64,000 bases of DNA from Caulobacter henricii (GTDB taxonomy: Bacteria > Pseudomonadota > Alphaproteobacteria > Caulobacterales > Caulobacteraceae), in NCBI RefSeq assembly GCF_001414055.1, contig NZ_CP013002.1, forward strand, positions 1,488,001 to 1,552,000, given 5' to 3'. The notes beneath the pieces are model-generated. The model was not told the DNA's origin, ran no database searches, and was given only the letters and a program-made list of their open reading frames with translations. Positions 6,418-16,074 of the stretch are shown piece after piece (position 1 is the stretch's first letter; the number at the start of each line of letters is the position of its first letter). Position numbers and translations under genes: made by a program.

Positions 6418-8247
6418 CTAGGGACGTCCTGGAGTCGCGCTCTGCATCGCGATCCAGGCGTCAATCTGAGCTTCCAGCACGTTGAGCGGTACCGAGCCGT
6501 TCTTCAGCACTACGTCGTGAAAGCCGCGCAGATCGAACCTGTTGCCCAGGGTCGTTTCGGCCCGCGTCCGCAGTTCGCGGATTTTCAGTTCACCCACCTT
6601 GTAGGCCAGCGCTTGGCCGGGCCAGGTGATGTAGCGGTCGACCTCGACCTCGATATTGGTGCGCGACAGAGCCGTGTTCTCCAGCATGAAGGCGATCGCC
6701 TGATCGCGCGTCCAGCCCTTGGCGTGGACGCCGGTGTCGACCACCAGCCGGCAGGCGCGCCACATCTCGTAGGACAGTCGACCCATGTCCTTCTCGGGCG
6801 TGTTGTACAGGCCCATCTCGATGCCGAGCCGCTCCGAATAGAGGCCCCAGCCCTCGACGAAGGCCGTGAAGAAGGCCGCGTTCTTGCGGAATTCCGGAAG
6901 GTCCAGTTCCTGCTGCAGCGCGATCTGGTGGTGATGCCCAGGCACGGCCTCGTGCACCGTCAGGGCCGGCATCTCATAAAGGGGGCGCTGGTCCAGGTGT
7001 GTCGTATTGACGAAATAGACCCCGGGCGCCCCAGTGCTGGCGAAACCCGGGTTGTAGTAGGCCGTGGTGTTGCCTTCGGCGATCTCGGCCGGGATCTCTC
7101 GCACGGTATAGGGCAGGCGCGGTAGGGTTCCGAAGAGCTTGGGCATCCAGCCATCGATCGTCTTGGCTAGGAACGACGCCTCGCGCATCAGCTCGGACGG
7201 GGTCTTGGCGTAATACTTCGGGTCGGTGCGGAGCTTTTCGATGAAGGCCTTGCGATCGGAAGCGATCCCGCTCCTGGTCGCCACCGCATCCATCTCGGCG
7301 CGGATGCGTGCCACTTCAGAAAGGCCCAGCTGGTGTATCTCCTCGGGCGTCTTCGTCGTCGTGGTCATGACGCGCACCTGGTAGGCGTACCAGGCCGGTC
7401 CCTGGGGCAGGCCGCTGGCCGCCACGTCCTTGCGGCACCGGGGCGCGTACTCCTTCTCATAGAAGTCGGAAAAGGCCTGGTAGGCGGGATTGACCGTGCC
7501 GGCGATGCTGGCCTTGGCCCGCGCCTGCATGGAGGCCCAGTCGGCTTCTGAAATCGACTGCGGTCGCGTCTTCTTGAACGGCTTGAAGAATGTCGAGGCT
7601 TCGGGGTCCCTCGCGATGGTCGCCGTGATCGTCGCGCCGAACGCCTTCATCGGCGCGCACGGCTGGACGTAGCCCTTGGCCAGCCCGTCCCGCACGGTGG
7701 CGATCGAGGCGGCGTTGTAGGCCGAATAGAGATCCAGCCGCTTCAGATAGCTGTCGTAGTCGCCCTTGGTGAAGAATGGCAGCATGTCGGGCAGTGAGGC
7801 GAAGAGCTGGTGCCAGCTCCCGATGCTGGAGAACAGCATGGTGCGCTGGCCGAACCCGTTGCCCTCGACCTGCTCGCTGAGCATGCGATGCAGGATCGCC
7901 TTGTTCACACGGTCGGCCTGGGACAGGCCGGCGTCGGGAATTGAGGCCAGCCGCTGGAGAATGACGCCAGCCTCGGCGGCCCGGCGATCGGCAAAGGCCA
8001 GCGACGGATCATCCAGCCGGTCATCGTAGTCGCGCACGCCCAGCAGCGTGGCCTGCACCGGCGCGCCCTTCAGCCACCAGGTCCAGTGCTCGTCGATCAG
8101 GGTCTTTAGCGCCTCTGCGGCCTTTTGGTCGGGCAATGCCGGCGCGGCCGCCAGACGCGTCGGCTCCGGCTGCGCCAGGGCCGGGCGCGCGATTGTTCCC
8201 ACGAATAGGGCCACGACGCAGGCTGCACCATTCCAACGCTTGTGCAT
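6418..8247 (-). CDS. secreted DUF885 family metallopeptidase-like protein
   Basis: A 609-residue exported protein. The Sec signal peptide ends near ARPALA (residue 25). The DUF885 signature HEAVPGH is at residues 432-438, inside an M1/M32-like zinc site, with a conserved YYNPG region before it. The ATG at 8247 is chosen because AAGGGGGG lies just upstream and the signal peptide starts there; the frame stays open 69 codons further up without homology. Members are annotated as peptidases on motif evidence; the substrate is unknown. It stands alone, with large intergenic regions on both sides. Confidence 0.88.
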   Translation of the reverse strand: MHKRWNGAACVVALFVGTIARPALAQPEPTRLAAAPALPDQKAAEALKTLIDEHWTWWLKGAPVQATLLGVRDYDDRLDDPSLAFADRRAAEAGVILQRLASIPDAGLSQADRVNKAILHRMLSEQVEGNGFGQRTMLFSSIGSWHQLFASLPDMLPFFTKGDYDSYLKRLDLYSAYNAASIATVRDGLAKGYVQPCAPMKAFGATITATIARDPEASTFFKPFKKTRPQSISEADWASMQARAKASIAGTVNPAYQAFSDFYEKEYAPRCRKDVAASGLPQGPAWYAYQVRVMTTTTKTPEEIHQLGLSEVARIRAEMDAVATRSGIASDRKAFIEKLRTDPKYYAKTPSELMREASFLAKTIDGWMPKLFGTLPRLPYTVREIPAEIAEGNTTAYYNPGFASTGAPGVYFVNTTHLDQRPLYEMPALTVHEAVPGHHHQIALQQELDLPEFRKNAAFFTAFVEGWGLYSERLGIEMGLYNTPEKDMGRLSYEMWRACRLVVDTGVHAKGWTRDQAIAFMLENTALSRTNIEVEVDRYITWPGQALAYKVGELKIRELRTRAETTLGNRFDLRGFHDVVLKNGSVPLNVLEAQIDAWIAMQSATPGRP

Positions 8248-8883
8248 GTTCCCCCCTTGAGATCGCCAAGTCTGTGCAGGAATCCACGCGTTAAGCTGTT
8301 TAGGCAACGGTCTGCGCCGCAACACCGTCCGGGACTGCGGCCCTCCCGATGCTAGGCACCGACCTGATATCGATATGTGGGGCCAACCTAACACCGGCTG
8401 GCTAGGGCGTTGAATTTCCTCAGTATGGCGATTTTGCCAACTTAGCGGTCCCAACTTAAAACCGGCCGCAGAACGACCAAACCAACTTAAGGCTGGCCGC
8501 AGCGCATTTCACTCACGTCCAATTTTCGATAAAAATGTAATGATTACAGAGGCTTGCCGTTTTCGCTTTGCCGTGACGACGGTTGCGCAAGGTCATCATT
8601 GCGAGGGTCCATAGCGTTGGGCGCCCAAGCGCGAATGTCTTGGTCGCTCCTCGCTCCGAGGCCCTACCGAGACCGAAAACAGTCTGGCTCAAGCCGGGAA
8701 ACCTTTTCAGGTGCAGATCATCCTAGCGGCGGCAGCCAGAGTTTGGCACTCGCGGATCCCAAGACCGGGGACTTTTGGCGTACAAAGGTTTGTGAAGCGG
8801 ACACGGGTCCAAGCTTTCGGGAAGGGGTTACGCTGTGTAACTGATCTGCTGGTGTAAGCTAGGCAAGCGCCGCTTTAAGGGTG
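8248..8883. other. 636-bp intergenic region with small palindromes
   Basis: No gene is supported. The peptidase promoter should lie near 8250-8450. A 13-bp palindrome TGTAATGATTACA (8536-8548) sits in an AT-rich patch and could be an operator. GTTAC and GTAAC (8827-8841) form a small inverted repeat just past the end of the DUF3526 operon. Confidence 0.4.
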
Positions 8884-10248
8884 TCAGCCTTCAGGCGGAG
8901 CCCGCCGCAGCGCCCATGCTCCGGCGACGAGGCTGAGCAAGGCCAGGACACCGAGGGCGGCCAAGGGCTGTCGCGGCAGTCGCGCTGGTTCAGTGTCCGT
9001 TGCGAACCTCGGGAGGCGCTCGAAGTCCCTGCTCGTAAACGGCCTCTCGTTGAAAATGTACGGGTAGTAGAAGGCCTGCAGGTGGCGGTGGAACGCGACG
9101 ACCCTAACCTGATAGGCGAGGTGCGCCTCAAGGTCGGTGGAAGCAAGTTGGTGTGCCGCCGATTGCAGCGCAGCGGCCGGCAGAACCCAGCCGAGGCGAT
9201 CGGTCCAGGCGGCACGCGCCTTGAGGCTCGCGCGATAGCTGGCAAAGGCTTCTGCGACGCTGTCGTCGCCCATCTCGTGCATGGCATAGTACCATTTCCA
9301 GTGAAAGCGGCCGACCACGGGCGGAGTGTCGCGCCATTCCGGATGCTTCGCCTTGAAGGGCGTCATCACCGCGTACTTCGGAATATCCCAGGCGCGGTGC
9401 ACGGCCTCGCGCTGGGCCAGGGACAGGTCCATGCCCTGGCCGACAGGGTGACTGCGCGCAATCGCGACCGCGCCGAGCGCCGGTCCCAGAAGCGTCAGCA
9501 CCAGCCAAAGGCCGATCAGGCTGGCCGCATTGGTCGCCGATCGCCGGCCGATCGCAGCGACCAGAAGGGACAGGCCGAGCCAGAAGGTGACGTAGAGCGT
9601 CGCCGCCAGGGTGAGCATCGCGGTGCCCACCGGAGAGGCTCCGGCCAGGACCGCACCGACCCACAGCGGCAGAAGCAGCGCCGCCAGGACCAGACCGCCG
9701 CGCAGGCCGGCACGCCGCCCCCACACCCCGCTGACGCCGCCCGGGGTGGCGGCCAGCAGTCGCAGCCGGCCAGCCTCACGCTCGCTCGACACCAGATCAT
9801 GCAGCAGGGCGATCAGGACCAGCGGCGACAGATAGATCAGTACAAACGTCCAGTCGAAAGGGCCTGGCAGCACGAGCTCGGGGTTGTAGGCCTCGGTCTC
9901 ATGCAGTTGCGCCTGAAGGCCAAGGAGCCGGACGCGCAGTACGAACGGCTGCAGGTCGCGCTGTCCGAGAGCGGCAAAGGCCAGGGGGCGGGGAGGGTCG
10001 GCCGTCAGATGGAAGGTGTAGTAGGCCGCATAGCCCGCGTCTCCGTCCGGCTTTCCGTAGGTCCTGGCCACCCCGACGAGGTCGGCCTGATGGGCAGCGG
10101 CGACACGGGCAATGGTTGCGACCTGGCGATACTGGGCGGCGAGGCCGGCCGCGACCGCCAGCGTCGCTGCGGCCAGCAGGACGAGAAGCGCGGCGCAGGA
10201 GACCCTGGCGCGCAACAGAAGGATCAGTTCGGCGCGAAGGCGATTCAT
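8884..10248 (-). CDS. ABC transporter permease, DUF3526 family (second permease)
   Basis: A 454-residue inner-membrane protein with one N-terminal helix, a long extracytoplasmic loop (about 40-140), a block of five helices (about 140-275), a second large soluble loop and a C-terminal helix near 430-450. This is the DUF3526/ABC-2 layout. Its ATG overlaps the upstream permease stop by ATGA, and it is the last gene of the ATPase-permease-permease operon. It likely forms a heterodimer with the neighbouring permease. Confidence 0.87.
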   Translation of the reverse strand: MNRLRAELILLLRARVSCAALLVLLAAATLAVAAGLAAQYRQVATIARVAAAHQADLVGVARTYGKPDGDAGYAAYYTFHLTADPPRPLAFAALGQRDLQPFVLRVRLLGLQAQLHETEAYNPELVLPGPFDWTFVLIYLSPLVLIALLHDLVSSEREAGRLRLLAATPGGVSGVWGRRAGLRGGLVLAALLLPLWVGAVLAGASPVGTAMLTLAATLYVTFWLGLSLLVAAIGRRSATNAASLIGLWLVLTLLGPALGAVAIARSHPVGQGMDLSLAQREAVHRAWDIPKYAVMTPFKAKHPEWRDTPPVVGRFHWKWYYAMHEMGDDSVAEAFASYRASLKARAAWTDRLGWVLPAAALQSAAHQLASTDLEAHLAYQVRVVAFHRHLQAFYYPYIFNERPFTSRDFERLPRFATDTEPARLPRQPLAALGVLALLSLVAGAWALRRAPPEG

Positions 10249-11675
10249 TGGAAGGACTCCAGCGGGCGGCGCGCGATCTGGCGCAGCGCAAGGCCCAGGG
10301 CCGCCAGCCAGGCCAGCAGGATGGCGAGGGCTGTGCTGATCGCGCCTGCAGAGCGGGCCAGCGGATCGGGCGCGCGATAGACGAGGGTCGGCATGCGCGC
10401 CCAGGTGTCAGCGGACACGCGGGGATCGGGACCGGCATTCTGGTTGGGGATCGCCTCGATCTGGACGCGGTTCAGTGCCTGAACGAAGGCGTAGCGATGC
10501 GCCTCGACTTGATCGAGAAAGTGCTTGTGGCTTTCGACATCGGTCGCGGCGAGCGCCGATGAGCCGGTTCGAACAGCCAGCATCGGACTGACCACGCCGA
10601 AGGCGCGGACCACTCGATTCTGGGCCGATTCCCGGGCGAAGGCCTTGGCGGCGTAGCGGTCGAACAGCGCGCTGGTCAGGCGCTCGCCTTCGTAGGAGAC
10701 CAGACCCGCCCATTGCACGGGCAGGTCCTCGGCGCGCGACACGCCGTACTGGCGCAAGATCCTGGCCTTGTAAGCCGCGAAGTAGGGGTCATCCGGATTG
10801 TGGCTGTCGCCGATCGCCTTGAGATCGCGATGAATTGCCACGTCAGTTTCGATCCGGGTCGGCTGTGGATGCAGCAAGGCGGCGAGTTCGGGTAACCCGC
10901 GCGGCAGGATGATGGTCAGGGCCATCCAGATCGAAACCAGCGCGGCCAGGGCGTCACGCCCGCGACGGAACAGGCTGGACACCAGGACCGCCAGGGTCGC
11001 CCAGAAGGCCAGGTAAAGGGCATAGACCAGCAGCAAGGTACCGGCGGGCCCGGCCGGAGCCTGGCCGGCCGCGACCAGTGCCGCCAGGGCCAGGGCAGCG
11101 GGGACCAGCAGCGTGAGGCTTAGCCCGAGATGGATCGCCAGCTTGCCCATAAGGATTTCGGCGGGGCGCACACCCTGTGCCAGCAGCACGCGCAAGAGGC
11201 CGCTCTCGCGCTCCCGCGCGATGGCGCCGTGGGCCAGGAAGACCATCAGCAGCGGTGCCAGAACCTGCAGTACAAACGCCGGGCTGAGGTCACCGAACCG
11301 CATCAGGAGCGAGGATTGGCGGGCCTCGCTGAAGTTGGCACTGTTCTGGCGATGGCCCTCCAGGAACACCATCGATCCGGTATAGGCGTCGACGCCCGGA
11401 TCAAAGAAGGCCAGTGCAGAGAGCGGACGGAAGACGTACTGTCCATAGTGAACCATCCGGTGCGGATGGCGATCCGGCTGGGCCTTGAAGGCCGCGTCGC
11501 TGGCAGCCTGGTGGTGGGCGCGAAGGTCGTCAATGCGGGCCCGCCGGTCGAGACCCAGGCCGACTGAGGCGACGATCAGCAGGGCCAGGATCGCGCAGGC
11601 GATCGCGGCGACGTGGTTGCGGGTGAGGGCGCGAAGTTCCTCACGGGCAATTCGGGCGATGATGGCACGGCGCAT
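10245..11675 (-). CDS. ABC transporter permease, DUF3526 family (first permease)
   Basis: A 476-residue membrane protein of the ABC-2/DUF3526 type. It has an N-terminal helix at about residues 20-42, an extracytoplasmic domain, a cluster of helices around 150-275 containing ARERESGLLRVLLAQG (the coupling-helix region of ABC-2 permeases), and a last helix near 445-465. It starts 2 bp after the ATPase stop and overlaps the second permease by 4 bp. The substrate is unknown; the divergent TonB receptor suggests the two transport one ligand across the two membranes. Confidence 0.87.
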   Translation of the reverse strand: MRRAIIARIAREELRALTRNHVAAIACAILALLIVASVGLGLDRRARIDDLRAHHQAASDAAFKAQPDRHPHRMVHYGQYVFRPLSALAFFDPGVDAYTGSMVFLEGHRQNSANFSEARQSSLLMRFGDLSPAFVLQVLAPLLMVFLAHGAIARERESGLLRVLLAQGVRPAEILMGKLAIHLGLSLTLLVPAALALAALVAAGQAPAGPAGTLLLVYALYLAFWATLAVLVSSLFRRGRDALAALVSIWMALTIILPRGLPELAALLHPQPTRIETDVAIHRDLKAIGDSHNPDDPYFAAYKARILRQYGVSRAEDLPVQWAGLVSYEGERLTSALFDRYAAKAFARESAQNRVVRAFGVVSPMLAVRTGSSALAATDVESHKHFLDQVEAHRYAFVQALNRVQIEAIPNQNAGPDPRVSADTWARMPTLVYRAPDPLARSAGAISTALAILLAWLAALGLALRQIARRPLESFQ

Positions 11676-11677
11676 GG

Positions 11678-12433
11678 TCAGGCCGCCGCATCCGTCTGGC
11701 CGATGCGCACATAGCGCGCGTGGAGGGCCCGGACGTCGAAACGCGCCTCGCCCTCGGCGGTGAGTTCTGCCTCCAGCCGGCCATCGGCGAGGAAGCCGAT
11801 GCGATCGGCGATCTCGGCCGCGCCCAGCAGATCGTGGGTGACCATCAGGATCCCCATGCCGCGCGAGCGGGCCGCGTCGAGCAGGCGGTTGAAGTCCGCG
11901 GCCGCCCGGGGGTCCAGGCCGGACGTGGGTTCATCCAGCAGTAGAACGGGCGCGTGGCGGGCTATGGCCAGGCCGATGGCGGTCTTCTGGCGCATCCCTT
12001 TCGAGAAGCCACCCACCCGTCGACCGCGTGCGTCAGGCGCAAGTCCCGCCGCTTCGAGGGCGGCTTCGATGCGCGATGCCGAGGCGTCGGCACCGGCGAG
12101 CGCCAGGAAGTAGGACAGATTCTCGCGGGCGGTCAGATGTTCGTAGAGCGCGACGTTTTCCGGCACATAGGCAATCTTGGCGCGCGCCGCATCAGGTGCC
12201 TCGGTCACGTCCTGGTCCATCACCCGGACCGTTCCACCCGTCGGGCGGATCAGCCCCAGAAACGCGGACAGGGTCGTCGACTTGCCGGCCCCGTTGCCGC
12301 CCAGCAGGGCATAGATCTCGCCCGCGGCGACCTTGAAGTTCAGGCCCCGCAGGACGGCCTTGTCCCCGTACTGATGACGAAGGTCGCACGCCTCCAGGAC
12401 CACGTCGCGCTTGTCGCTCAAGGATTGCTCCAT
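11678..12433 (-). CDS. ABC transporter ATP-binding protein
   Basis: A 251-residue ATPase with Walker A GGNGAGKST, signature GGFSKGMRQK, Walker B VLLLDEPTSGLDP and a switch histidine in MVTHD. The ATG at 12433 gives the normal domain length; 23 more in-frame codons upstream would run into the intergenic palindrome. It is the first gene of the operon with two DUF3526 permeases, which have no periplasmic binding protein. The system is therefore an ABC-2-type exporter or a specialised importer. Confidence 0.93.
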   Translation of the reverse strand: MEQSLSDKRDVVLEACDLRHQYGDKAVLRGLNFKVAAGEIYALLGGNGAGKSTTLSAFLGLIRPTGGTVRVMDQDVTEAPDAARAKIAYVPENVALYEHLTARENLSYFLALAGADASASRIEAALEAAGLAPDARGRRVGGFSKGMRQKTAIGLAIARHAPVLLLDEPTSGLDPRAAADFNRLLDAARSRGMGILMVTHDLLGAAEIADRIGFLADGRLEAELTAEGEARFDVRALHARYVRIGQTDAAA

Positions 12434-12485
12434 CCCGTTTCGTACGTCGCCAGCCTCTTGCCAGCCGCGTCGGTTAATGCATATG

Positions 12486-12497
12486 ACGTTATAACGT
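12486..12497. promoter_or_regulatory. perfect 12-bp palindrome, candidate shared operator
   Basis: ACGTTATAACGT is a perfect inverted repeat midway between the divergent ABC operon (start 12433) and the TonB receptor (start 12569). Flanking bases give a longer imperfect dyad (12482-12501). The GTTATAAC core resembles alphaproteobacterial Zur sites, which would make this a zinc- or metallophore-regulated locus. That assignment is inference from motif shape and gene content. Confidence 0.5.
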
Positions 12498-12568
12498 AAC
12501 ACTTACATTGCGTGTCAATCGCGATTGAGCGAGGACGCGCCAGTGCGCTTGGCGCGACGGGGGATGAG

Positions 12569-14665
12569 ATGAAACTTGAGCGTTTGAAGCTGGTTTTCGC
12601 GGCAGGCTGCTCGCTGCTGGCCCTGGGCGGAGGCGCGCGCGCCGCAGAGACCGCCGGGACTCCCGAAGGCACCACGGTCGTTGAGGACGTCAAGGTCACG
12701 GCCCGACGCGCCAGCGCCAGCATCAATGGCCTGGACGTCGATCCCAGGACCCTGCCGCAAAACGTGCGGGTCCTGGACAGGGCCCTGATCGAGACGATCG
12801 GCGTGGCCAATCTCTCGGACCTCTTCGATCTGGCCGGCGGCATGGCCCGCCAGAACAGCTTTGGCGGGGCCTGGGACGCCTACGCCATTCGCGGGTTCTC
12901 CGGCGACATCAACCAGGGCCCGGACCTGCTGGTCAACCGCTTCGTGTCCAACCGCGGCTTCAATCCGCGCCGGGACGTGGCCACGGTCGAGGCCTTCCAG
13001 GTGCTGAAGGGGCCGGCCTCAGCCCTGTCCGGCAAGGGCGAGCCGGGCGGATCGATCAACATCGTGACCAAGGCCCCTGGCCGGGACCCGGTGGCCATCG
13101 TCGAAGCGTCCTACGGAAGCTTCGACACCTGGCGCGGCGTCGCTGACCTCAACGGTCCGCTGACCTCAACGACGGCTGCACGCCTGGTCGCAGCCTATCA
13201 GGAGACGGACGGCTTCCGCGATCATGTCGGATCGGACCGCCTTGTGCTGGCCCCGTCGTTCACCTGGGCACCGACCGACCGGTTGCGGGTACTATACCAA
13301 CTCGAGGCCAACAAGGTTCACTTCGTCCACGATCGCGGCGTCGTCGCCATCGGCGGCAACGGCAAGGCGCTGCCGCGGACGCGGTTCCTGGGCGAACCCA
13401 ATGACGGTAAGATCCGCCAGGAAACCCTGCAGCATCAGGCCTCGTTCTTCCTCGACCTGGCCGAGGGCATTTCGCTGGAAGGCGGCGTTCAGTACCGCGA
13501 CGGCCTGTTCAAGGGCCAGTCGACCCACAACGGCAGCCTGGTTGGCGCACTCCTGCGCCGCCAATTGCGGATCCATTCGTATAGCTGGGAAGACGCTTCA
13601 GGTCGCCTGGAACTGGCCGTCAAGCGCACCCTGGCCGGCGTCGATCATCAGCTGCGCATCGGCGTCGACGCCTTCGACTACAACCAGACCCGGGTCTTCT
13701 ATCGCTTCAGCCCCAGCGCCGCAGTGCCCTACGCCATTGACGTCTACAATCCGGTCTATGGCCAGGCCAAGCCCACCGCGACGCTGAACCAGAACATCCT
13801 TGAGGAACTGAACGGCAAGAGCCTTTACGTCCAGGATCTGGCGACCATCGGTCGCCTGACCGTCATGCTGGGCGTCCGCCATGACTGGTTTGAACAGAAC
13901 AATACAAACTACCGAACCAGCCGCCTGGATCAGCAGAAGCCCTCGCGCACCTCGCCCCGTGCAGCCGTGACCTGGATGGCCAGCGACACCGTGTCGCTCT
14001 ACGCCAGCTGGGGGCAGTCCTTCCGCTACAATCAGGGCGTCGATGCTGTGAGCCGCGCCTTCGCGCCGGAACTGGGCGAGGCCTACGAGGCTGGCCTAAA
14101 GGTTCGCCTTCTGGACGACGCCCTGACCGGGACCGCTTCAGTGTTCCGTATCGAAAAGGAAAACACCCTGGTCAACGACCCGGCCAATAGCGGCTTCTCG
14201 ATCGCCGTCGGCGAGGCGCGCAGTGAGGGAGCCGAGGCCAATGCGACCTGGGCGGTGAGCGACAAGCTCTCAATAACCGCCGTCTACGCCTATACCGACG
14301 CCAAGGTGACCCGCGATACGCGTCCGGGCCTGACCGGGTCGTCTCTGAGCAATGTGCCAAAGCACTCCGGCGCGGTCTATGCGTCGTGGGCTTCGAACAG
14401 GACCCAGCCGGGCTCGATCGGCATCGGCGGCGGCCTGAGCTTCGTGGGTGAACGCGCTGGCGATGACGTCAACAGCGGCTTCAAGTTGCCACGCTATGCG
14501 ACAGCCCGGGTCAATCTGGGCGTCCAGGTCACACCATCAGTTCGGGCCGCCCTGGATGTCGAGAACCTGTTCGACACCGCTTATCTGGAAAGCTCCTACA
14601 GCAACGTTTGGATCACGCCCGGTGCGCCCCGCACGGTTACGGGCAGGCTGAAGGTGGTGTTCTAG
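12569..14665 (+). CDS. TonB-dependent siderophore-type receptor
   Basis: A 698-residue outer-membrane barrel with an N-terminal signal peptide ending at GGGARAA, a TonB box-like segment (TTVVEDVKVTARR), a plug domain (about 45-170, with YAIRGFSGD and LKGPASALSGKGEPGG) and a beta-barrel ending in the C-terminal Phe expected of such proteins (LKVVF). The ATG at 12569 follows GGGGGATGAG and starts the signal peptide; a GTG 57 bases upstream is less likely. It diverges from the DUF3526 ABC operon across a palindromic operator. Ligand unknown; a metal chelate is likely from the subfamily. Confidence 0.93.
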   Translation: MKLERLKLVFAAGCSLLALGGGARAAETAGTPEGTTVVEDVKVTARRASASINGLDVDPRTLPQNVRVLDRALIETIGVANLSDLFDLAGGMARQNSFGGAWDAYAIRGFSGDINQGPDLLVNRFVSNRGFNPRRDVATVEAFQVLKGPASALSGKGEPGGSINIVTKAPGRDPVAIVEASYGSFDTWRGVADLNGPLTSTTAARLVAAYQETDGFRDHVGSDRLVLAPSFTWAPTDRLRVLYQLEANKVHFVHDRGVVAIGGNGKALPRTRFLGEPNDGKIRQETLQHQASFFLDLAEGISLEGGVQYRDGLFKGQSTHNGSLVGALLRRQLRIHSYSWEDASGRLELAVKRTLAGVDHQLRIGVDAFDYNQTRVFYRFSPSAAVPYAIDVYNPVYGQAKPTATLNQNILEELNGKSLYVQDLATIGRLTVMLGVRHDWFEQNNTNYRTSRLDQQKPSRTSPRAAVTWMASDTVSLYASWGQSFRYNQGVDAVSRAFAPELGEAYEAGLKVRLLDDALTGTASVFRIEKENTLVNDPANSGFSIAVGEARSEGAEANATWAVSDKLSITAVYAYTDAKVTRDTRPGLTGSSLSNVPKHSGAVYASWASNRTQPGSIGIGGGLSFVGERAGDDVNSGFKLPRYATARVNLGVQVTPSVRAALDVENLFDTAYLESSYSNVWITPGAPRTVTGRLKVVF

Positions 14666-15259: not shown

Positions 15260-16074
15260 GGTGTTGTCATATTGACCGCGCCAAGTTGAATTTGGCTAAT
15301 ACTTGGACGTTTCAGGCCGTGGCCTTCGCCCAAGCAGCATGCGCCTCGGCGCGGAAGCGGCGAAGGTTGGATCGGCTGATCATGTGTCTCTGGACGGAGA
15401 ACGTGTTGTAGACGGCGGCGTGGGTGGACAGGAAACGCTGGGCGGTTGACTGGCTCTTAAAGCCCTGCATCCTTCGCTCTCGTTGCCGGATCGGAAGGTG
15501 GGCGTTCTCGGCGCGATTGTTCTCTCGGAGCCGTCCTGGCCGATGAAGGTGCTCCAATTCCAGCGTCCGTAGGGCCGCCGCGTAGGACGACAGGCCGTCC
15601 GTCGTGATGGTTTCGGGCTCGACCGGCTGACGGCGCAGCAGTCGCTCAAGGAATTTCCGAGCTGCCCTCGTGTCCCGGCGGCGTTCCATGAGCAGCTCCA
15701 GAACCTCGCCTTCGCCGTCGACCGCGCGCCAGAGGTCTATGCGCCAGCCGCCGATCCGGCAGACCACTTCGTCGAGGTGCCAGCGGGGCGAAGGGGAGGG
15801 GCGAAGCTTCTTCAATCGTCTGGCGATCGCCGGTCCGAATTTCTTGGCCCAGCACCGGATCGTCTCGTAGCTCACCTCGATACAGCGCTCGGCGAGGAGA
15901 CATTCGACGTCGCGGAGGCTCAAGCTGAAACGGAAGTAGAGCCAGACCGCGTGTCTGATGACGTCTGGCGGGAAGCGATGGCGCTTGAACGACAGGGGGG
16001 TCAAATTCAGTCTCCGCATGCAAACCCGGCTGTGCCGAGTTGCAGAGACAAGTTAGCGTTAGACTGACAGCACC
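15260..16074 (-). mobile_element. IS6-family insertion sequence copy B, apparently complete
   Basis: The 815-bp element is bounded by inverted repeats: GGTGTTGTCA at 15260 and, on the opposite strand, GGTGCTGTCAG ending at 16074. It contains one full transposase gene. Size and gene content fit the IS6 family (700-900 bp). Its inner ends resemble copies A (14676) and C (51412) and the relic at 18701. No 8-bp target duplication is seen, as expected if it abuts another copy. Confidence 0.85.
15312..16019 (-). CDS. IS6-family DDE transposase
   Basis: A full-length 235-residue transposase. An N-terminal HTH region (LSLRDVECLLAERCIEVSYETI, about 33-54) precedes the catalytic domain with Asp83 (WHLDEVV), Asp141 (TTDGLSSY) and Glu171 (NNRAENAH). 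IS6 enzymes carry out replicative cointegrate formation between copies. Three other related sequences in this window give substrates for such rearrangements. Start ATG at 16019 is the only one giving the HTH intact. Confidence 0.93.
   Translation of the reverse strand: MRRLNLTPLSFKRHRFPPDVIRHAVWLYFRFSLSLRDVECLLAERCIEVSYETIRCWAKKFGPAIARRLKKLRPSPSPRWHLDEVVCRIGGWRIDLWRAVDGEGEVLELLMERRRDTRAARKFLERLLRRQPVEPETITTDGLSSYAAALRTLELEHLHRPGRLRENNRAENAHLPIRQRERRMQGFKSQSTAQRFLSTHAAVYNTFSVQRHMISRSNLRRFRAEAHAAWAKATA

Follow-up and report, generated by a model that had tools for sequence, protein, structure and literature searches.

A palindrome in a divergent promoter of Caulobacter henricii as the probable middle of a Zur operator shared by a ZnuK-type receptor gene and an ABC operon of ZnuGHI type

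The 64,000-bp stretch of Caulobacter henricii DNA analyzed in this study (the window) contains, at positions 12482-12501, what is very probably a Zur operator serving two divergent units, a receptor gene of ZnuK type and an ABC operon of ZnuGHI type, both of which zinc-loaded Zur (Zn-Zur) would silence. Motif, genomic context and conservation were observed directly; binding and repression are inferred by analogy with Caulobacter crescentus, whose znuK/znuGHI promoter was, according to the original study, bound by Zur in EMSA and repressed by zinc, with lacZ and array data also published (Mazzon et al., 2014, PMC4176598). Loss of zur raised expression of znuK, znuG, znuH and znuI by factors of 41, 29, 38 and 12, respectively, according to the same source.

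The intergenic region comprises 135 bp between the ATG of the ABC ATPase gene at 12433 (minus strand) and the ATG of the receptor gene at 12569 (plus strand). Within it, the perfect 12-bp palindrome ACGTTATAACGT occupies positions 12486-12497, so that both the gap length and the position of the palindrome, as given in an initial annotation of this DNA, were reproduced. An exact search found a single copy of this 12-mer in the 3,957,288-base genome. However, palindromy by itself is weak evidence and perfect palindromes of 12 bp are not rare; there are 31 in the window and two within the gap, starting at 12486 and 12516. The latter belongs to a second perfect palindrome of the same promoter (TCAATCGCGATTGA, 12515-12528), which likewise occurs once in the genome and, allowing up to two mismatches, was absent from the promoters of 90 relatives.

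The initial annotation had likened the core of the palindrome to Zur sites, and the likeness extends to two independently published motifs. The Zur box of C. crescentus is GTTA-N5-TAAC in the accessible text of Mazzon et al. (PMC4176598), and positions 12488-12500 (GTTATAACGTAAC) match it exactly. For Escherichia coli, the Zur structure paper describes the site of a single dimer as RNNNYxxxRNNNY and that of a dimer pair with a 5-bp offset by the skeleton RNNNYRNNRYNNYRNNNY and the IUPAC box TGWNAYRWTATAWYRTNWCA (PMC4219657). Positions 12482-12501 agree with this IUPAC box at 19 of 20 positions, more than any other place in the 3.96-Mb genome does, and fully satisfy the 18-bp skeleton. A matrix built from four published C. 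crescentus sites of Zur-repressed promoters placed its top hit in the window at 12485-12503 (20.9 bits), followed by an overlapping place with 13.0 bits and a next separate one with 11.4 bits. Chance does not account for the agreement with these independent Zur motifs.

The centre of the 20-bp operator lies between 12491 and 12492 and is at the same time the centre of the palindrome. Since 12482-12501 fits the E. coli box and both centres coincide, the palindrome forms, judged from the sequence, the central part of a two-dimer operator, and the GTTA-N5-TAAC core (12488-12500) is predicted to bind one of two overlapping dimers, the second core being the RNNNYxxxRNNNY match at 12483-12495 with its 5-bp offset. 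The extension of the palindrome as an imperfect dyad, also proposed initially, is recovered in this arrangement, as 12483-12500 consists of four purine-NNN-pyrimidine half-sites in the E. coli two-dimer pattern. We had considered the palindrome to be an accident lying 2.5 bp off the GTTA-N5-TAAC centre; this was dropped because the E. coli rule puts the palindrome centre and the two-dimer centre together.

A genome-wide motif search, as proposed in the initial annotation, was performed with both motifs. Allowing up to three mismatches, the E. coli box was found at eight places in the genome (the window site with one mismatch, two sites with two and five with three), and its reversed control likewise yielded eight. 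Exact GTTA-N5-TAAC occurs only at the window site and the two sites with two mismatches. Because the reversed control of this motif occurs four times, its count alone proves nothing, while the gene company of the sites is informative. The first of the two further sites is located upstream of a TonB receptor gene in the layout of C. crescentus znuL. The second precedes a gene for a 209-aa, membrane-like protein (six transmembrane stretches) followed by a CobW-family gene, which is the zrpW-zrpX layout. The best other sites in the genome thus stand before znuL-like and zrpWX-like genes.

The genome encodes a Zur protein at L060:4486-4977, which matches E. coli Zur (4mtd) with E 1.2e-31. In the alignment Tyr45 and Arg65 are kept, while Ser and Ala take the positions of Asp49 and Arg52, which link the dimers in E. 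coli. This inter-dimer pair is described as highly conserved in Zur; however, it was found in none of 30 family Zur sequences (L150-L179, from among 123 genomes with a Zur match). Asp49/Arg52 is a trait of the E. coli-type cooperative complex and not of Zur boxes in general. The operators of Caulobacter and its relatives nevertheless keep the two-dimer spacing in the presence of a Zur lacking the pair.

For the comparison with relatives, 100 loci were collected: 20 from family genomes, which are all loci with DUF3526 among 149 family genomes besides that of the window, and 80 from named relatives, the best-ranking of 404, by which choice the sample leans to close kin. The ATPase gene adjoins the first permease gene in 98 of them. 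The two exceptions, L056 and L057, carry diverged DUF3526 pairs with a related ATPase after the second permease and none beside the first. Excluding these two, L089 and L124 with unusable promoter limits and six duplicate promoters left 90 promoters. Promoters whose receptor shares at least 55% identity with that of the window were regarded as orthologous (n = 14, window included, same-contig duplicates removed). GTTA-N5-TAAC is present in 13 of these 14, L100 lacking the exact core, and the exact 12-mer palindrome in two, the window and L042 (Root655). Among the ten distinct boxes, which were aligned on GTTA and TAAC and are hence invariant there by selection, all share T at -7, A at +2 and T at +8, and the central base varies. 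The two-dimer skeleton is complete in the register of the window, toward the ABC operon, in 12 of 13 boxes and in the mirrored register, toward the receptor gene, in none of 13; this test scores eight positions, five of which are independent of the way the boxes were selected.

On a broader scale, the matrix gave 104 hits of at least 12 bits in 96 operon promoters, or 3.51 per kb. The remainder of the same loci gave 23 (0.020 per kb) and is a cleaner background than random segments, which included promoters. The E. coli box with at most one mismatch gave ten promoter hits and one elsewhere in the loci. With relaxed half-sites, the spacing N5 was found in 40 of the 90 promoters and N0 in 19, with at most four for each other spacing from 1 to 12. 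N0 is the spacing of the palindrome itself and is expected where dimers overlap. Broken down by class (assigned by us, with family genomes counted as alphaproteobacterial), a site of at least 12 bits is present in 56 of 63 alphaproteobacterial, 3 of 3 gammaproteobacterial and 0 of 24 betaproteobacterial promoters among the 90 distinct ones without the window.

From the result for Betaproteobacteria it follows that the operon is either not always a zinc starvation system or is governed there by another box. Fur control was tried as an explanation with a Fur consensus, and was rejected since the 24 promoters mostly scored no better than background, with Fur-like palindromes above background in L135 and L138 only. 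In L135 (Pseudoduganella umbonata) the Fur-like palindrome AATGATAATGCATTATCATT lies about 107 bases before the ATPase gene and gives a hint toward iron control. Another palindrome, shared by several betaproteobacterial loci, was not treated as an operator, as it falls in or near a small DUF2946 frame. At L117:2522-2905 and in 12 other betaproteobacterial loci, a gene for a small protein lies ahead of the receptor gene of the DUF3526 operon; the L117 copy encodes a DUF2946 protein.

Could the window site serve a regulator other than Zur, or none at all? Zur and Fur boxes are related, and the receptor scores above the cut-off of the TonB siderophore-receptor subfamily TIGR01783, so that Fur or another dyad-binding regulator might be envisioned at this operator. 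However, the site fits two independent Zur motifs, which recur at the znuL-like and zrpWX-like promoters, and binding by Zur as well as repression by zinc are on record for the C. crescentus counterpart (PMC4176598); we therefore regard iron control or control by a further regulator as very improbable. Even less credible is a chance feature without function. The abundance of 12-bp palindromes in the window and the gap, and the restriction of the exact 12-mer to 2 of 14 orthologous promoters, would be in line with it, but the enclosing operator is kept in 13 of these 14, and no other place in the genome fits the Zur box as well. Points that count against the Zur reading itself are the Ser/Ala replacement of Asp49/Arg52, the betaproteobacterial promoters devoid of a Zur-type site, the inexact core of L100 and the negative outcome of a strict promoter scan.

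Under Zur control, Zn-Zur would cover 12482-12501 in zinc-replete cells and overlap the likely -10 element of the ABC operon, keeping both units off. A strict promoter scan found no -35/-10 pair in the gap. By eye, TTGACA at 12513-12518 (minus strand) is a likely -35 element of the ABC operon, with TTGAC at equal distance in L042, and TTATAA at 12489-12494 (minus strand), within the operator, a likely -10 element at a spacing of 17-18 bases. This putative arrangement fits a shutdown of the ABC promoter by Zn-Zur. Upon zinc starvation Zur would leave the operator, and receptor gene and ABC operon would both be expressed. The receptor would then let zinc, free or chelated, pass the outer membrane, as mutant growth shows for znuK in C. 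crescentus; znuK and znuL mutants fail on 850 µM EDTA according to PMC4176598. At the inner membrane the ABC part would do without a binding protein, and the conserved His, Asp and Glu residues in the predicted periplasmic loops of the permease would be the likely metal site. For the case of Zur control, the initial annotation had proposed an uptake or export route for zinc or a metallophore. The Zur control stands, given the motif, the company of the sites in the genome, the conservation, the Zur protein and the EMSA, lacZ and microarray data from C. crescentus, whereas the transport route is one of several readings weighed below.

The receptor (12569-14665, plus strand) is a ZnuK-like TonB-dependent protein with similarity to FhuA, CntO/FoxA and other receptors for chelated metals. 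Just past its gene, a frame on the opposite strand (15312-16019) resembles an IS6-type transposase. The ABC operon on the minus strand consists of a ZnuG-like ATPase (11678-12433; PF00005), a first ABC-2 permease with DUF3526 (10245-11675; ZnuH-like) and a second one (8884-10248; ZnuI-like). These two are the only DUF3526 matches in the genome, and among 14 control genomes only that of Caulobacter vibrioides has any. Searches of the genome for the families of ABC-3 (ZnuB-type) permeases, ZnuA and ZIP gave no match, and C. vibrioides was not among the matching control genomes either. The absence of a periplasmic binding protein, another claim of the initial annotation, thus holds for the operon, which encodes an ATPase and two permeases, as well as for ZnuA-family proteins in the whole genome. 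The DUF885 gene at 6418-8454 was considered as a further part of the system and rejected, as no window protein outside the operon appears in the clusters of at least five loci among the 40 clusters listed. We make no claim of an anticorrelation between DUF3526 and ZnuB-type permeases because genera are confounded; 21 and 68 of the 149 family genomes have matches, many of the 68 being weak. No family genome among the 149 combines DUF3526 with an ABC-3 match of at least 100 bits.

The fold of the first permease was predicted with a pLDDT of 88.7, and its best fold match is NosY (Foldseek E 6.4e-5; Z 24.7, rmsd 2.9 over 242 residues). A sequence search against solved structures gave nothing up to E 1, and the second permease matches NosY weakly (best E 5.1e-3). 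A hydropathy scan puts loops 45-126 and 262-438 of the first permease outside the membrane stretches, and on the usual ABC-2 topology we infer them to be periplasmic. They contain five histidines that are invariant in 41 of 41 aligned sequences (H70, H72, H76, H108 and H292), together with D92, D96, E106, D290, D296, E329, E331 and E391. These conserved His, Asp and Glu residues are a likely, though unproven, metal site.

How the ABC part works might be explained in several ways. We tentatively suggest that ZnuGHI is a zinc machine of a new type, in which two NosY-like ABC-2 permeases with histidine-containing periplasmic DUF3526 domains take zinc directly from the periplasm, either by import without a binding protein or by ATP-driven hand-over. 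It might replace ZnuABC in Caulobacter and be run by Zur in many Alphaproteobacteria, while betaproteobacterial copies, often beside a DUF2946 gene, might answer another signal. This is a possible reading as a whole, not a probable one. Rather unlikely in our view is an exporter of a zinc chelator, with ZnuK retaking the loaded chelator. The ABC-2/ABCG/ABCA-type fold of the first permease, a class that includes many exporters, the likeness of the receptor to metal-chelate receptors and the operon without a binding protein would all suit such a cycle; however, no chelator synthesis genes were found among the conserved neighbours (loci up to 14 kb), and invariant His, Asp and Glu residues in predicted periplasmic loops suggest metal contact. 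Doubtful to a similar degree is that ZnuGHI transports nothing across the membrane and that ATP drives the DUF3526 domains, by which zinc would be handed from a carrier or the receptor to another protein. NosDFY and copper provide a precedent for ATP-driven hand-over in the periplasm, and this idea draws on NosY as best fold match and on the large conserved loops with their invariant histidines. Yet the operon lacks a NosD-like partner, the second permease resembles NosY weakly and we know of no zinc protein client.

The Zur operator at znuK/znuGHI is already known from C. crescentus, and the window locus adds another case. The palindrome is now tied to a named regulon, and its operator type recurs at the same operon across alpha- and gammaproteobacterial classes. 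At the same time a gap becomes visible: the accessible part of a 2018 review counts znuGHI among the ABC systems for zinc uptake (PMC6103462), yet the fold is not that of ZnuABC and a binding protein is missing. We found no test of the ABC genes in that part of the review, nor in the available text of PMC4176598, whose tested C. crescentus mutants affect zur, znuK, znuL and a receptor gene used as control. A literature search on DUF3526 retrieved no paper. The remaining interest is therefore the role of a NosY-like, binding-protein-free DUF3526 ABC machine in zinc starvation.

If compared to known systems, the window operon shares with the ZnuABC importer an ABC system under Zur, but comprises neither an ABC-3 permease nor ZnuA, which are absent from the genome as well. 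It resembles NosFY of NosDFY in the predicted model of its first permease, onto which 242 of the 248 modelled NosY residues could be aligned (Z 24.7, rmsd 2.9). In contrast to NosFY, it encodes two different permeases with large DUF3526 insertions and, in terms of operon content, no NosD, and it is accompanied by Zur control and a TonB receptor. The operator follows that of the E. coli znuABC promoter (4mtd) in form, while the target genes differ and the host Zur lacks Asp49/Arg52. The closest likeness is to C. crescentus znuK/znuGHI (CC1517/CC1518-CC1520): the receptor gene diverges from an ABC-2 operon of the order ATPase-permease-permease, and a single GTTA-N5-TAAC box separates the units, both permeases of the window carrying DUF3526. 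Compared to the C. crescentus box, the TAACG centre of the window box creates the perfect 12-bp palindrome. Receptor identity between the window and same-genus relatives is 64-68%, and two loci of the genus, L039 and L040, contain the exact 19-mer given for znuG in the available part of PMC4176598. Taken together, these likenesses identify the window locus, as far as sequence and layout can tell, as the counterpart of C. crescentus znuK/znuGHI.
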